Shown: one piece after another, positions 55,446-62,850 of the stretch
Layout of the letters: every line of letters starts with the position of its first letter
How positions within the stretch are numbered: position 1 is the stretch's first letter
Source of the DNA: an uncultured Verrucomicrobiota bacterium
Lineage (GTDB): Bacteria; Verrucomicrobiota; Verrucomicrobiia; Limisphaerales; UBA9464
Direction of reading: 5' to 3'
Assembly: GCA_903922605.1 (NCBI GenBank)
Contig: CAIXUG010000058.1
Coordinates: 1 to 64,000, forward strand
Length of the DNA: 64,000 nucleotides
Notes under the pieces: generated by a model
The model's database searches: none
Seen by the model: only the letters and a program-made list of their open reading frames with translations
What the model was told of the DNA's origin: nothing
Position numbers and translations under genes: made by a program

Positions 55446-56144
55446 TCAGTTCGCCTTCTCGATCGAGAGCAGCTCCACGTCGAAGATGAGCACGCTGTTC
55501 GGCCCGATCTTGGGGCCCGCGCCCTGCTCGCCGTAGGCGATCTTGGACGGGAGCGTGATCTGCCACTTGTCGCCTTCCTTCATGAGTTGCAGCGCCTCGG
55601 TCCAGCCGGGGATGACGCCGTTCACCGGGAAGCTCACCGGCTCGCCGCGTTCCACGGAGCTGTCGAACACGGTGCCGTCGATGAGCGTGCCGTGGTAGTG
55701 GACCTTGACCGTGTCCGTGCTCTTGGGCGTGCGGCCGGTGCCCGACTTGAGCACCTTGTATTGCAGCCCGCTGGCGGTGGACTTCACGCCGTCCTTCTTG
55801 AGGTTGGCGGCGAGGAATTCCTCGCCCTTCTTGATGTTTTCCGCGCCGGCCGATTTCTGCTTGGCCTCCATCTTGGCCTGCATCTGCGTGCCGAACTCGG
55901 TCAGCACCTGCTTGATCTCGTCCTCGGTCAGGGCCGGCTTGCCCGCGAAGGCGTCGGCGAGACCGGCGGCCACGGTCTTGGGATCAATGTCCAGCTCCTG
56001 GCGTTTCATGCCGGTGCCGATGTTGATGCCGATGGCGTAGCTGACGCGCTGCTTGGAATCCTTGAGGTCCGGCTTGTCGTCCGCGAGGGCGGCGCCGGCT
56101 AAAATGACAGACATGGCGAGTGTATGAATGCGAAATGAGGTCAT
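55446..56144 (-). CDS. FKBP-type peptidyl-prolyl cis-trans isomerase
   Basis: A 232-residue exported folding factor (Mip/FkpA-like). After the signal (HTLAMSVILAGAALADD) comes the dimerising helical region (SYAIGINIGTGMKRQELDID, GKPALTEDEIKQVL, about 30-125). The C-terminal FKBP domain (VKVHYHGTLIDGTVFDSS, FPVNGVIPGWTEALQLMKEGDKW, IAYGEQGAGPKIGPNSVLIFDVELL) carries the usual active-site residues. I chose the ATG at 56144, where the signal peptide begins. It lies on the same strand as the ubiquitin-like operon, but repeat-containing DNA separates them. Confidence 0.95.
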   Translation of the reverse strand: MTSFRIHTLAMSVILAGAALADDKPDLKDSKQRVSYAIGINIGTGMKRQELDIDPKTVAAGLADAFAGKPALTEDEIKQVLTEFGTQMQAKMEAKQKSAGAENIKKGEEFLAANLKKDGVKSTASGLQYKVLKSGTGRTPKSTDTVKVHYHGTLIDGTVFDSSVERGEPVSFPVNGVIPGWTEALQLMKEGDKWQITLPSKIAYGEQGAGPKIGPNSVLIFDVELLSIEKAN

Positions 56145-56405: not shown

Positions 56406-56975
56406 TCACATCACCAGCATCGCCTCGTCGGGTAGCTCCTCCGAAGCGCCGCCAAAGAAGCACTTACGCTCCTTGCGGATGGGGTCCACCACCAGCCCGA
56501 GGGCGTAGGGGTGATTGAAAAAGGCCGATTGCGTGGCGCGGTCCGTGCCGCTGAAGAAGACACCCAGGTTGGGATGGCTGTGGTACCAGCCCACGACCAT
56601 CAGGCCGTTTTGCAGGCGCTCGCCCGCGCGTGACCAAACCTCGGTGCCCATGCGGAGGGACACGGAGGAGTTGCAGTACTCGTTGCTGGCCACCGCCTGT
56701 TCCACGACGGTGATCCAGGGGTAGTTCGTCGCGGTGGCAAAGCGCGTCTGATACACCCGACCCAGGAGCAGGCCGCCCAGTTCGGCGTCCTCGCTGTCCA
56801 GGTGGGCCGCGATCGCCCGTTCGGCCGGCCGGGTGATATAGACCTTCTGCCCCGCGTTGGCATTGCGGATGAAGGCCGTCGAATCGGCCCAATGCGACTG
56901 GCGCGCGAGCTGGTCGAATTCACGGACACGAACTTCGGGCTCGGCTTCACGCCAGCGGATGCAACGGGGGATCAT
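56406..56975 (-). CDS. JAMM/MPN (JAB) domain isopeptidase of ubiquitin-like operon
   Basis: A 189-residue metalloprotease predicted to cleave the ubiquitin-like protein from its precursor or conjugates. The complete JAMM zinc motif is visible: Glu65 (DAELGGLLLG), His132 and His134 (YHSHPNLG), Ser142 and Asp145 (FFSGTD). Roughly 45 N-terminal residues precede the domain. The ATG at 56975 overlaps the E2 stop (ATGA), so translation is coupled. It is the last gene of the operon. Bacterial relatives include BilC of BilABCD antiphage operons, but specific orthology is not established here. Confidence 0.93.
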   Translation of the reverse strand: MIPRCIRWREAEPEVRVREFDQLARQSHWADSTAFIRNANAGQKVYITRPAERAIAAHLDSEDAELGGLLLGRVYQTRFATATNYPWITVVEQAVASNEYCNSSVSLRMGTEVWSRAGERLQNGLMVVGWYHSHPNLGVFFSGTDRATQSAFFNHPYALGLVVDPIRKERKCFFGGASEELPDEAMLVM

Positions 56976-57490
56976 TTGAGGGTCTTCCACTGGATGGTGG
57001 GTTTGGTGGCGACGCGCAGGGAGTCGAGCCGCACGGTGGGAAACAGGGCGAGGTCGCGCCGACGGGTGGCGGCATACCATTGCGCCGCCTCGCTGTTGGC
57101 CGGGCTGGCGAGATTGATGATGGACGGCTCGAGGGTCAGGATCTGCAGCACCCGCTGGACGAGCATCGCGAGATTGTGCGTGGGGATCCACTTCTCGCCC
57201 ATGCAGATCAGTCCGCTGGGGTAGATGTTTGGATTCCACACGGGCGTGGTGACGCTGAATTTGGGCGGGTCGAAGGGATACCGTGCCGGCAGGTCGATCC
57301 GCACGTCGCTGACGGACGACCGTTCATCAGGATAGCGCTCGCTCCGGACGGTCGGCAGGTTGATCGCCAGCTCAATCACCCCCACCGGGTTGCCCGTCGT
57401 GCGCGTGACGGCCACGACGCCCCGAAACTCGGCCGCGAGATCCAGCAGCTTGGTGACATCCTCCTGACGCCGTTTGGCGATGGCATCCAT
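56972..57490 (-). CDS. E2/UBC-fold ubiquitin-conjugating enzyme-like protein
   Basis: A 172-residue predicted E2. The core shows DLPARYPFDPPKFSVTTPVW (about 66-85), the HPN-like turn WNPNI (85-89; His replaced by Trp-Asn), and the active-site cysteine Cys96 in SGLICMGEKW, then helices with LAMLVQRVLQILTLEPS. This order matches eukaryotic UBC enzymes. It would carry the Ubl as a thioester for transfer to lysines or other acceptors. It is 346 bp from the Ubl gene because a repeat element intervenes, and is start-coupled to the JAMM gene. Confidence 0.92.
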   Translation of the reverse strand: MDAIAKRRQEDVTKLLDLAAEFRGVVAVTRTTGNPVGVIELAINLPTVRSERYPDERSSVSDVRIDLPARYPFDPPKFSVTTPVWNPNIYPSGLICMGEKWIPTHNLAMLVQRVLQILTLEPSIINLASPANSEAAQWYAATRRRDLALFPTVRLDSLRVATKPTIQWKTLK

Positions 57491-57565
57491 GGGATTAGAG
57501 CGGTCCCATAAGGGACCATTCGGAATTCATCTCGCGATGCGAAGGCCCCTGAGGGACGCAAGCCG

Positions 57566-57836
57566 CCTTCCCCCTCACCCCGGCCCTCTCCCTGGGGGAG
57601 AGGGGGAAGCCGGGTAGCCTGACGGGTTGTTCGTATATGCTTCCGGCAACTCCAGCGCGCGTTTTCGCCGAAAGACGGGCGATAATTCTCCCTCTCCCTA
57701 AGGGAGAGGGCCGGGGTGAGGGGGAAGGGCGCGAACAGACCACAAAACGCCCGGAAACGATGAAGGCTATGTCCGGAGATCCAAATCTCCCCGGCCCCAC
57801 CAAGTTGTTCCCAACTGCAGAACGGAGGCTCATCGG
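57566..57836. repeat. Inverted repeat element splitting the ubiquitin-like operon
   Basis: A CCTTCCCCCTCACCCCGGCCCTCTCCC arm starts at 57566. Its inverted counterpart runs at 57701-57728, each with an inner GAGAGGG hairpin. The sequence beyond the right arm, to about 57830, resembles the inverse of 62690-62810, so the mobile unit is probably larger than the arms. No gene is seen in 57491-57836. It has been inserted between Ubl and E2. Confidence 0.7.
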
Positions 57837-58109
57837 CTACGAGAGTTCTGAACCTGTCCAACCCGCCACGAGCACCGGCTGGATCTCCAGCGTGTCCCCC
57901 GAGGCGACTCCCGCCTTTTCCAGGGTGTCGGCCGGGTTGACGGTCTTCTTCTGCGAATCGTTGACGAGGGAGTAGTCGGTGTCGCGGGGCAGGCTCCATT
58001 TGTCCACGGCGGCCTGGATGACATCGCCGCCGGTCATCTGCTGCGGTAGCTCGATCTCGGCCTTTCGGGCCCGGTCGGCCGTGCGCACGATCAGTTTCAG
58101 TTCGCTCAT
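57837..58109 (-). CDS. Ubiquitin-like beta-grasp modifier
   Basis: A 90-residue predicted modifier. The order of elements fits a beta-grasp: strand LKLIVRTA, strand KAEIELP, helix GGDVIQAAVDKWSL, strands YSLVN and DTLEIQPVL. The end reads LVAG-WTGSELS: a glycine at position 83 followed by a seven-residue tail. I infer that the JAMM enzyme removes the tail to expose a C-terminal Gly for E1 activation; a simple readthrough of an older stop is the alternative. ATG follows directly after the E1 stop. It resembles EsaB/YukD-type as well as ubiquitin-like folds, but the neighbours decide. Confidence 0.88.
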   Translation of the reverse strand: MSELKLIVRTADRARKAEIELPQQMTGGDVIQAAVDKWSLPRDTDYSLVNDSQKKTVNPADTLEKAGVASGDTLEIQPVLVAGWTGSELS

Positions 58110-59228
58110 TCAGTCCTCCAATTCGAGCAGGAATTGTTGTTCACGGTCATGGAAATGGATGTATTTCACCGGCAAAGGCCGGTCGGCAAAGGACGCGAGC
58201 AACTCGCGATAGGAAAGCGCGTCCACGATCCGCAGCACGTTGGACGGCTGCTGGCAGGTCGGGCATTCGGCGAGGCGTTCGTCATGCCGCGCGGCAAGGT
58301 CAAAGATGTCGGACTTCCGGTCACACAGGGTACATCGGCTGTCTAGGACGATTGGTTCACTCAAAAAAACGGTGAAGTCCTGGTCGGCCAGCCGATGCGC
58401 GAGTTCCTGGTCGAGAGAATGGCGCTTCACCCGGAAACAATGGCAGTCCGCTTGGAACCGCGAACAGGCCGGGCAGAGATCGTACGTGCTGATCGCCGTC
58501 ACCGTGCTGGCCAAGCTCACGGAATCGAGGGTGAATTTCTGCGAACCCGTCAGCCGGTCGGGATGGCCGCAACGCCGTTGCAGGAAGAGTGAGGCCATCG
58601 TCGCCCCTGCCAGGCTGGAGGTGATGGCGGTCGTCGGCACCTTGCGTTCCTCAAAGGCCACGCGCTGAAGCCAGCCGCACGAATAGCGCCGGCGCATCGT
58701 CGCGTAAGCGCCGGGCGGCAGCCAGCACTCGTAGCAGGCGCAATCCGCCTCGGTGCCAAATGGATACTGCTCGACCGCGACATGGCGGCTGTCGATGCCG
58801 GCGTTAAAGAAATCCACGCGCGCCAGCCGGCAGAGCTGGTTGAGCCGGATGCGCGCCGCGAAATTGTCCACGCAGCAGAAGACCGCCTGAAAACCGCGCA
58901 AGTCATCCAGCGACAACGACTCCCAAAAGTCGTAGTTGCTGAACGTGACCCGGGCATTGGGGTCCAGTTCGCGGCACGCCGCAGCGGCGGCTTCCGCCTT
59001 GAAGCGGCCCACATCGGCCGGCTTGAACAGCACCGTGCGCGTGAGGTTGTGCTCCTCGATGCGGTCAAAATCCACGATGTGGACGTGCCCCACCCCGAGC
59101 AGGCAGAGGTTTTTCAGCACCTCATTGCCGATGGCCCCTGCCCCGATCACGGCCACCGAACTGCCGGCGAGCTTCTCCTGGTCGAACCAGTCCACCAGGG
59201 AGTGACGTTGGTAGCGCTCGCGCTTCAT
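58110..59228 (-). CDS. E1/ThiF-family Ubl-activating enzyme
   Basis: A 372-residue adenylating enzyme that would activate the Ubl C-terminus with ATP. Visible features are the nucleotide loop GAGAIG (29-34), Asp53, Asn61/Arg64 (EEHNLTR), Lys77 in GRFKAEA and Asp121 (CCVDNFAAR). Cysteine pairs C165/C168 and C252/C255 suit the structural zinc. Cys184 in RYSCGW, in the crossover-loop position, is the best candidate for the thioester cysteine. A second CxxC...CxxC (C299/C302, C322/C325) forms an extra C-terminal zinc module. The ATG overlaps the J-protein stop by ATGA. Confidence 0.95.
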   Translation of the reverse strand: MKRERYQRHSLVDWFDQEKLAGSSVAVIGAGAIGNEVLKNLCLLGVGHVHIVDFDRIEEHNLTRTVLFKPADVGRFKAEAAAAACRELDPNARVTFSNYDFWESLSLDDLRGFQAVFCCVDNFAARIRLNQLCRLARVDFFNAGIDSRHVAVEQYPFGTEADCACYECWLPPGAYATMRRRYSCGWLQRVAFEERKVPTTAITSSLAGATMASLFLQRRCGHPDRLTGSQKFTLDSVSLASTVTAISTYDLCPACSRFQADCHCFRVKRHSLDQELAHRLADQDFTVFLSEPIVLDSRCTLCDRKSDIFDLAARHDERLAECPTCQQPSNVLRIVDALSYRELLASFADRPLPVKYIHFHDREQQFLLELED

Positions 59229-59491
59229 GAATCGGAACCCGGTGACGGCGGGGTCGTGCGCTTGACCAGCACCTCGTACGCTTCGTTGATGATTTTCAGC
59301 ACCTCCGCGTTGCTGCCCTGCAGGAATTCGTGCGAGCGGTCGGGATGGTAAATTTTCACCAACCGGCGATAGGAGGCCTTCACGTCCTCTAGCGGCGCAT
59401 TCTCCACCACCTGAAGCACCTCGTGCGGCGGCAAGGTGCGGAGCGCCTCGGGCCGGCTGGCATAGCCCTTGGGTAGATCGCGCCATTTCAT
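59225..59491 (-). CDS. Short J-domain protein
   Basis: An 88-residue J-domain with the HPD motif at residues 49-51 (KIYHPDRSHEF) between helices II and III (EDVKASYRRLVKI and AEVLKIINEAYEVLVK). It should stimulate an Hsp70 (DnaK) ATPase; no Hsp70 gene is in the window, so a chromosomal DnaK would be used. The ATG overlaps the stop of the upstream membrane protein gene, and its stop overlaps the E1 start. Its fixed place in the operon suggests that a Ubl-tagged or membrane-localised client is handed to the chaperone system. Confidence 0.9.
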   Translation of the reverse strand: MKWRDLPKGYASRPEALRTLPPHEVLQVVENAPLEDVKASYRRLVKIYHPDRSHEFLQGSNAEVLKIINEAYEVLVKRTTPPSPGSDS

Positions 59492-60423
59492 CGGATGTCC
59501 TCGATCATGCTGCGTTCGGTGAGGAGCACCTGGTGGCCAAACTCCTCGTGTTGCTGCACCAGGCCGCGGATGCGGATCGTCCGGCCTTCCAGGTTGCGGA
59601 CGAAGGGCTCGCCACCTACGGCCGCCAAATCGTGATGCAACACCACCGCCTTGAATCCCTGCGACCACTTGCGGTTCTGGAACATGATCGCGAAGTGCCG
59701 CCCTTTGGGACTGGCCAGCACCCGGGGCACGAAGCCCTCGAAGCTTACGACCCGGCCGACGTGCTCGCGAAAGTTGATCAGCGTCACCGGTCCGCTGGGT
59801 TCTTCCGCCGGCAAGGTTCCGCGAGCGGGTGTCTCGGCCGTGGCCGGGCGGAATCCGCGATGCGGCGTGGTCAGGGTCACCGGGCGGATGGAAATGCTCA
59901 GGCAGGCCACGCATTGGCCGCCATTTTCCGCCTTCAGCGTCTCTACACTCGCCCGGTGGTAATAGACTTCGCATTGGAAGCACTGGAAGAGCCCCAACGC
60001 CGGCTTCAGGCCCTCGCCGGTGAAGGCATCCACCACGTCCGCCACATCATCCGCCGTGACCGAACGCTGTTCGGGCTGAAGGTCGCGGAAAACGATGGTC
60101 TTTTTCGGGGCGCCGACGAGGCCAGAAGGCCGGAACCACACCTCCGGTTGCGCCCGGGTCGGTGGCGGTGGGGGCGGCGGGGCAAACGGATTCGGCAGCG
60201 ACTGCCGGCAGGCGCCGCAGCGATACCGCGTGGGGTCGGCTCTGGGGCGCAGGCGGTTACGCTGGCCGCAATGGGCGCAATCCACGATCCGGGCATCCAC
60301 GGACCCGGACGTGGCGGCATTGGCCAAAGCCATGCGCGAGCGGGCGAGCCAACGGAAGTTGGAGAATCTCAACACCCACCAGATCACCAGCGCGGACGCG
60401 GCAATGGCCCAAACAAACACCAC
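59488..60423 (-). CDS. Membrane protein with zinc ribbon, RING-like cluster and OB-fold; candidate E3
   Basis: A 311-residue first gene of the operon. Order: N-terminal membrane helix (VWAIAASALVIWWVLRF); zinc ribbon with Cys49/52 (DCAHCG) and Cys69/72 (RCGAC); proline linker; a second cluster CFQCEVYYH ... GGQCVAC with Cys148, Cys151, His156, Cys171 and Cys174; and an OB-fold-like C-terminus (VVSFEGFVPRVLASPKG, EGRTIRIRGLVQQ). The second cluster is RING/treble-clef-like but has only about five ligands, so it may be a single-site domain. A membrane-tethered E3 is an inference from context. Alternatives are a scaffold or a substrate receptor. Confidence 0.8.
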   Translation of the reverse strand: MVFVWAIAASALVIWWVLRFSNFRWLARSRMALANAATSGSVDARIVDCAHCGQRNRLRPRADPTRYRCGACRQSLPNPFAPPPPPPPTRAQPEVWFRPSGLVGAPKKTIVFRDLQPEQRSVTADDVADVVDAFTGEGLKPALGLFQCFQCEVYYHRASVETLKAENGGQCVACLSISIRPVTLTTPHRGFRPATAETPARGTLPAEEPSGPVTLINFREHVGRVVSFEGFVPRVLASPKGRHFAIMFQNRKWSQGFKAVVLHHDLAAVGGEPFVRNLEGRTIRIRGLVQQHEEFGHQVLLTERSMIEDIR

Positions 60424-62689: not shown

Positions 62690-62850
62690 GAAAACTTGCG
62701 GCTGCACCAACCGAATCTTTGCAGTTGGAAAAGGAGCGTGTCGCTCTGGTCGTTGGGTCTTTCGATCCAGCCCCAATCGTTTTCAGCCGTGTGGCAGTCC
62801 GTTCACGCCCTTCCCCCTCACCCCGGCCCTCTCCCTTGGGGAGAGGGAGA
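62690..62850 (-). repeat. Dispersed CCCTCACCCCGGCCCTCTCCC element, third copy
   Basis: The core at 62809-62847 matches the arms at 57566 and 57701. On the minus strand the flank towards 62690 also resembles 57729-57830 (a GGCG-GAAC-GAC start, AAACGAT, TTCCAACTGCA words), so homology extends past the palindrome. It belongs to the 600-bp gap between SCO and coxB, 62673-63280, which has no gene. Confidence 0.65.

Follow-up and report, generated by a model that had tools for sequence, protein, structure and literature searches.

A 64,000-nucleotide stretch of DNA from an uncultured verrucomicrobial bacterium (hereafter the window) carries a six-gene operon that encodes a ubiquitin-like protein (Ubl), an E1, an E2 and a JAMM isopeptidase, together with a membrane-anchored zinc protein and a J-domain protein. 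We propose, with a probability of roughly 0.5, that these genes specify a self-contained Ubl conjugation system in which the JAMM would trim the Ubl, a membrane zinc protein would take part, the J-protein would supply clients and the parts would dock through short WRD-type tails. The conjugation chemistry very probably operates, while the tagging of chaperone clients is a more tentative proposal that we place a little short of even. Most of what is known of bacterial ubiquitin-like systems concerns antiphage devices; if the proposal is true, the J-bearing version would be a minimal chaperone-coupled Ubl system for quality control, a function known elsewhere from eukaryotes.

Gene content and catalytic residues

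As the original prediction had it, six minus-strand genes lie within 56406-60423, and all six open reading frames are present. The features are as follows:

59488..60423, minus strand: membrane-anchored zinc protein, 311 aa, with an N-terminal TM helix, a zinc ribbon and a degenerate RING-like motif
59225..59491, minus strand: J-domain protein, 88 aa (Pfam DnaJ 9.5e-12), HPD intact, N-terminal MKWRDLP
58110..59228, minus strand: E1-like ThiF enzyme, 372 aa, with ThiF-type Zn cysteines, Cys184 and an extra C-terminal zinc ribbon
57837..58109, minus strand: Ubl, 90 aa, beta-grasp over residues 1-83 to a conserved AG, then a 7-residue tail, WTGSELS
57496..57858, no strand assigned: 363-bp insertion relative to the sister genome G004, its core a dispersed inverted repeat
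56972..57490, minus strand: E2, 172 aa, with Cys96, NPN and C-terminal IQWKTLK
56406..56975, minus strand: JAMM isopeptidase, 189 aa, with E65, H132xH134, S142 and D145, and N-terminal IRWREAE

The genes had been described as mostly joined by ATGA overlaps, which holds for three of the five junctions; the E1 and Ubl genes abut, and the Ubl and E2 genes lie 346 bases apart because the repeat was inserted between them. Pfam matches (ThiF 3e-39, UQ_con 2e-14, Prok-JAB 2e-10 and a weak YukD match of the Ubl at 9e-5) and intact catalytic residues confirm that E1, E2, Ubl and JAMM are all encoded. In the E1, GAGAIG, D121, C165/C168 and C184 are invariant in the alignment with relatives, and the best PDB matches are eukaryotic E1s, with UBA5, MoeB and ThiF lower in the list. 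Cys96, the predicted carrier residue of the E2, is present and invariant across relatives, as is Asn88 of the NPN (HPN-like) motif; this places an HPN-type Asn eight residues ahead of the active Cys, as expected of a eukaryote-like E2, and the best PDB matches are indeed eukaryotic E2s (5e-10). The JAMM had been called intact, and E65, H132, H134, S142 and D145 are all kept and invariant in the alignment with relatives, the best PDB match being Caldiarchaeum Rpn11 (CsRpn11, E 7e-24). The prediction of a modifier is likewise borne out by a structure model of the Ubl, which gives a beta-grasp with mean pLDDT 89 and disordered residues 84-90, and whose best PDB match is Caldiarchaeum Ub (6fno_D).

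The membrane zinc protein displays a zinc ribbon (CxxC-CxxC) followed by CxxC-x4-H-CxxC, the latter being common to the zinc proteins of the window, of the divergent genome G061 and of one cyanobacterial MAG. In a profile comparison (hhalign probability 93) this motif matches one portion of the binuclear RING found in the wider family, and the G061 protein gives a sub-threshold match to Prok-RING_1. One of the two RING zinc sites is kept and one zinc pair is missing; these features support a putative degenerate RING relative, so that the earlier description as RING-like stands for a single-site relative of Prok-RING_1 and not for a full binuclear RING. The OB domain also predicted for this protein found no support (Pfam E=0.2; mean pLDDT of the structure model 48).

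Distribution, neighbourhood and the J-protein

An E2 profile scan of one genome per species, covering 84,980 species, yielded 80 loci. Most of them are Planctomycetota-type operons with the order Ubl-E1-JAMM-FHA membrane protein-RING-E2, which also occur in Riflebacteria, Myxococcota, Acidobacteriota and others, including the window bacterium's own taxonomic order; no J-domain was found in the Planctomycetota-type loci of the survey. An E2 match in genome G088 (L014) was discarded as a chance match within a signal-peptide-bearing protein of 1707 aa. Within the survey, the order E1-Ubl-E2-JAMM is found only in the window genome (G000), in G004 (public MAG Umea2_bin-2232), a sister genome in the same genus with the same six genes, and in a set of cyanobacterial loci. 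In G061 the genes for the zinc protein, the J-protein and the E1 are on one contig and those for the Ubl, E2 and JAMM on another. The E1 contig ends 25 bases past the E1 (loci L099 and L011), which may reflect an operon split in two or a break in the assembly. An E1 tree splits G000, G004, G061 and the cyanobacterial loci from the Planctomycetota-type family (99/98).

The J-protein is found in three genomes (G000, G004 and G061), all verrucomicrobial, and is absent from all cyanobacterial members of the clade; the three carriers as one clade give a p-AU of 0.19 on the E1 tree. Because neither the cyanobacterial members nor the wider family have it, the J-protein is, on the sequence record, best read as an accessory of the Ubl system. 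That it is a true part of the operon is supported by the divergent G061, in which the genes for the zinc protein, J-protein and E1 recur together. The prediction that all six genes would be conserved together holds for G004 and G061, where all six types occur, but not for the cyanobacterial operons, which have E1-Ubl-E2-JAMM, usually with a zinc protein, and no J-protein. Among these, the Crinalium relative (L137) is carried on the mobilizable plasmid pCRI9333.03. L137 and L144 also encode an extra VirD4-like ATPase and small proteins with LNWRD-like tails, so that a Ubl system and a conjugation-type ATPase come together in these loci.

In both the window genome and G004, the operon is flanked by a cytochrome oxidase cluster on one side and an FKBP gene on the other. 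We considered the FKBP-type prolyl isomerase (55446-56144, directly downstream) as a seventh part and rejected it, as all eight genomes of the genus keep it, whether or not they have the operon. The operon itself is patchy, being present in two of these eight; in the other members the FKBP gene is located elsewhere or the contig is too short for an empty-site comparison. Between the window and G004, dN/dS is 0.11 for the zinc protein, 0.13 for the J-protein, 0.07 for the E1, 0 for the Ubl, 0.014 for the E2 and 0.04 for the JAMM, with one amino-acid difference in the E2 and none in the Ubl. All six genes are under purifying selection in this comparison, which does not date the insertion.

The Ubl C-terminus and the W[RKH][DE] motif

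The Ala-Gly end is nearly invariant among the Ubl homologs: 16 distinct sequences stop at the Gly of AG, while most others carry tails of 1-24 residues. G004 lacks the insertion and has four bases between its Ubl and E2 genes. In the window, the insertion interrupts the ancestral Ubl stop codon from its third base onward (GGT TGA in G004, GGT TGG in the window), and as a result the Ubl does not end at the conserved Gly83 and instead reads seven residues past it. The inverted-repeat arms are 43 nt long (57566-57608 and 57686-57728), and the dispersed repeat occurs in at least 40 related copies across the window genome; another arm-like copy is seen at 62809-62835. Elsewhere, L129 (5102-5707) has tandem Ubl genes ahead of one E1, the first without the AG end (it ends LRLFAF). 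Of the two Ubl genes in L137, one ends GGY and the other is without a terminal Gly.

In the window operon an Rpn11-like JAMM and a tailed Ubl co-occur, and cleavage of the latter by the former is predicted. In Caldiarchaeum, Ub starts out as a precursor, which CsRpn11 cleaves after the C-terminal Gly (PMC6043591). Given this precedent, and because the homologs either end at Gly or carry tails, trimming of a tailed Ubl precursor by the JAMM is plausible by analogy. The window copy, with its stop-codon insertion, and the tailless copy of the sister genome offer a natural comparison by which to ask whether the Ubl is matured by the JAMM.

A second recurring feature is the motif W[RKH][DE], found near the N-terminus of the window J-protein and JAMM, with a looser form at the C-terminus of the E2; the window E1, Ubl and zinc protein are without it. 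In relatives it occurs at similar places as well as in the tails of the VirD4-like ATPase and of small proteins, and in the G061 J-protein the copy adjoins the J domain. We counted 21 occurrences in 10,958 aa compared to 3.3 in within-protein shuffles, although the motif was picked after seeing the sequences and the probabilities are optimistic. Its density is 1.9 per 1000 aa in clade proteins versus 0.16 in 89 neighbouring genes (about 12-fold). In the wider family the core E1, E2 and Ubl are almost free of the motif, and the copy seen in the JAMMs is unrelated and lies within the JAMM domain. The WRD tails offer a testable rule for the assembly of the parts.

Possible role and comparison with known systems

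Beyond the gene anatomy, we infer a flow of the Ubl with trimming, docking and a quality-control role. The JAMM would trim the Ubl precursor after Gly83, in the window strain removing WTGSELS, after which the ThiF-type E1 would adenylate Gly83 and the Ubl would pass to Cys96 of the E2. The membrane zinc protein may bring the charged E2 to the inner membrane, thereby aiding ligation, and the J-protein would bring DnaK and unfolded clients to the conjugation machinery, so that the substrates would be chaperone-bound or membrane-proximal proteins, from which the JAMM would later take the tag off. The short WRD-type tails of E2, JAMM and J-protein are proposed to dock on a common subunit, be it the E1, the Ubl or the zinc protein. 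The most specific form of this proposal, an Hsp70-wired pathway in which DnaK clients reach a membrane-anchored, WRD-docked E2 complex by way of the J-protein and the repeat has made a tail-less Ubl a JAMM-dependent precursor, is in our estimate somewhat unlikely.

The main rival to the quality-control role is defence, in which a BilABCD-like antiphage or stress-induced immune system would tag phage or host proteins and the J-protein would aid recognition of phage assembly intermediates. The patchy occurrence in the genus and the plasmid-borne Crinalium relative are consistent with this, as are the ties of related Ubl systems to conflict systems (PMC7159879) and to DNA-damage regulators (PMC13373217); the patchiness would equally suit a dispensable system. 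However, neither a defence island nor an integrase nor a CapW/CapHP/CapKS-type regulator was recognised beside the operon, no member was found in phage records or viral contigs, PADLOC returned no matching system for the operon, and no other known defence gene was found among the scanned window proteins, one weak match excepted; we hold this explanation to be unlikely. It is also unlikely, and a shade more so, that the window copy is impaired and only the G004 copy works, the repeat blocking the Ubl C-terminus and uncoupling translation or transcription of E2 and JAMM. The loss of the stop codon with its seven added residues would fit such damage, as would the strong folding of the inserted RNA (-122 kcal/mol, z -8.3); but all six frames are open, the E2 and Ubl have hardly changed relative to G004, tails past AG are natural in many homologs, and no terminator with a U-tract was detected in the insert. 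A sulfur-carrier or other ThiS/MoaD-like biosynthetic pathway in place of protein tagging is very improbable: the E1 does fall in the ThiF/MoeB group with ThiF-type cysteines, yet it is accompanied by a genuine E2 with an active Cys and an Rpn11-like JAMM, the Ubl fold is nearest ubiquitin, and the genes beside the operon include none recognised as sulfur or cofactor genes.

The proposed conjugation system was compared with those already described. BilABCD and Bub use, like the window operon, Ubl, E1, E2 and JAMM/JAB families, and the original prediction named BilABCD-type operons as relatives. This assignment was not upheld. Bil has a two-domain Ubl, a two-lobed E1 and a CEHH E2 (PMC11354881). 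In contrast to the two ubiquitin-like domains of the BilABCD Ubl, the window Ubl is a single 83-residue beta-grasp, and instead of an inactive and an active adenylation domain its E1 has one ThiF domain and a zinc ribbon, the BilD model matching only part of it (2.4e-8). The CEHH motif (Cys, Glu at +6, His at +8, His at +13) is likewise missing from the window E2, which reads C96-MGEKWIPTH with no Glu at +6 and no His at +8.

Descriptions of prokaryotic E1-E2-Ubl-JAB operons date back to 2006 (PMC1779556), so the core four-part kit is already known. What may be new here is the J-protein in a bacterial E1-E2-Ubl-JAMM operon: no description of one was found in the literature searched, whose coverage excludes Burroughs 2011/2012, Gong 2025 and Ye 2026, so that an earlier description may exist.

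Bacterial Ubl operons of the Planctomycetota type, which include a RING, were reportedly surveyed by Burroughs, Iyer and Aravind in 2011. They share with the window homologous E1, E2 and JAMM (by profile matches), an AG-ended YukD-like Ubl, membrane anchoring and a RING-family zinc protein, whereas the window differs in its E1-Ubl-E2-JAMM order, the lack of FHA, a one-site RING, the J-protein and the WRD-type tails. The Caldiarchaeum subterraneum ubiquitin operon, composed of CsUb, E1, E2, a RING E3 and CsRpn11, resembles the window in Ubl fold, Rpn11-like JAMM, precursor tail and eukaryote-like E2; unlike it, the window has an AG and not a GG end, a degenerate RING, a J-protein and a bacterial host. 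Five cyanobacterial operons (L026, L137, L143, L144 and L145) have the window gene order and related E1, E2 and JAMM, most with WRD-type tails and often with a zinc protein; they differ in having no J-protein, in some cases a VirD4-like ATPase or Ubls ending GG, and in one case a plasmid location. Judged by its sequences, the window operon is a member of this small E1-Ubl-E2-JAMM clade and not of BilABCD.
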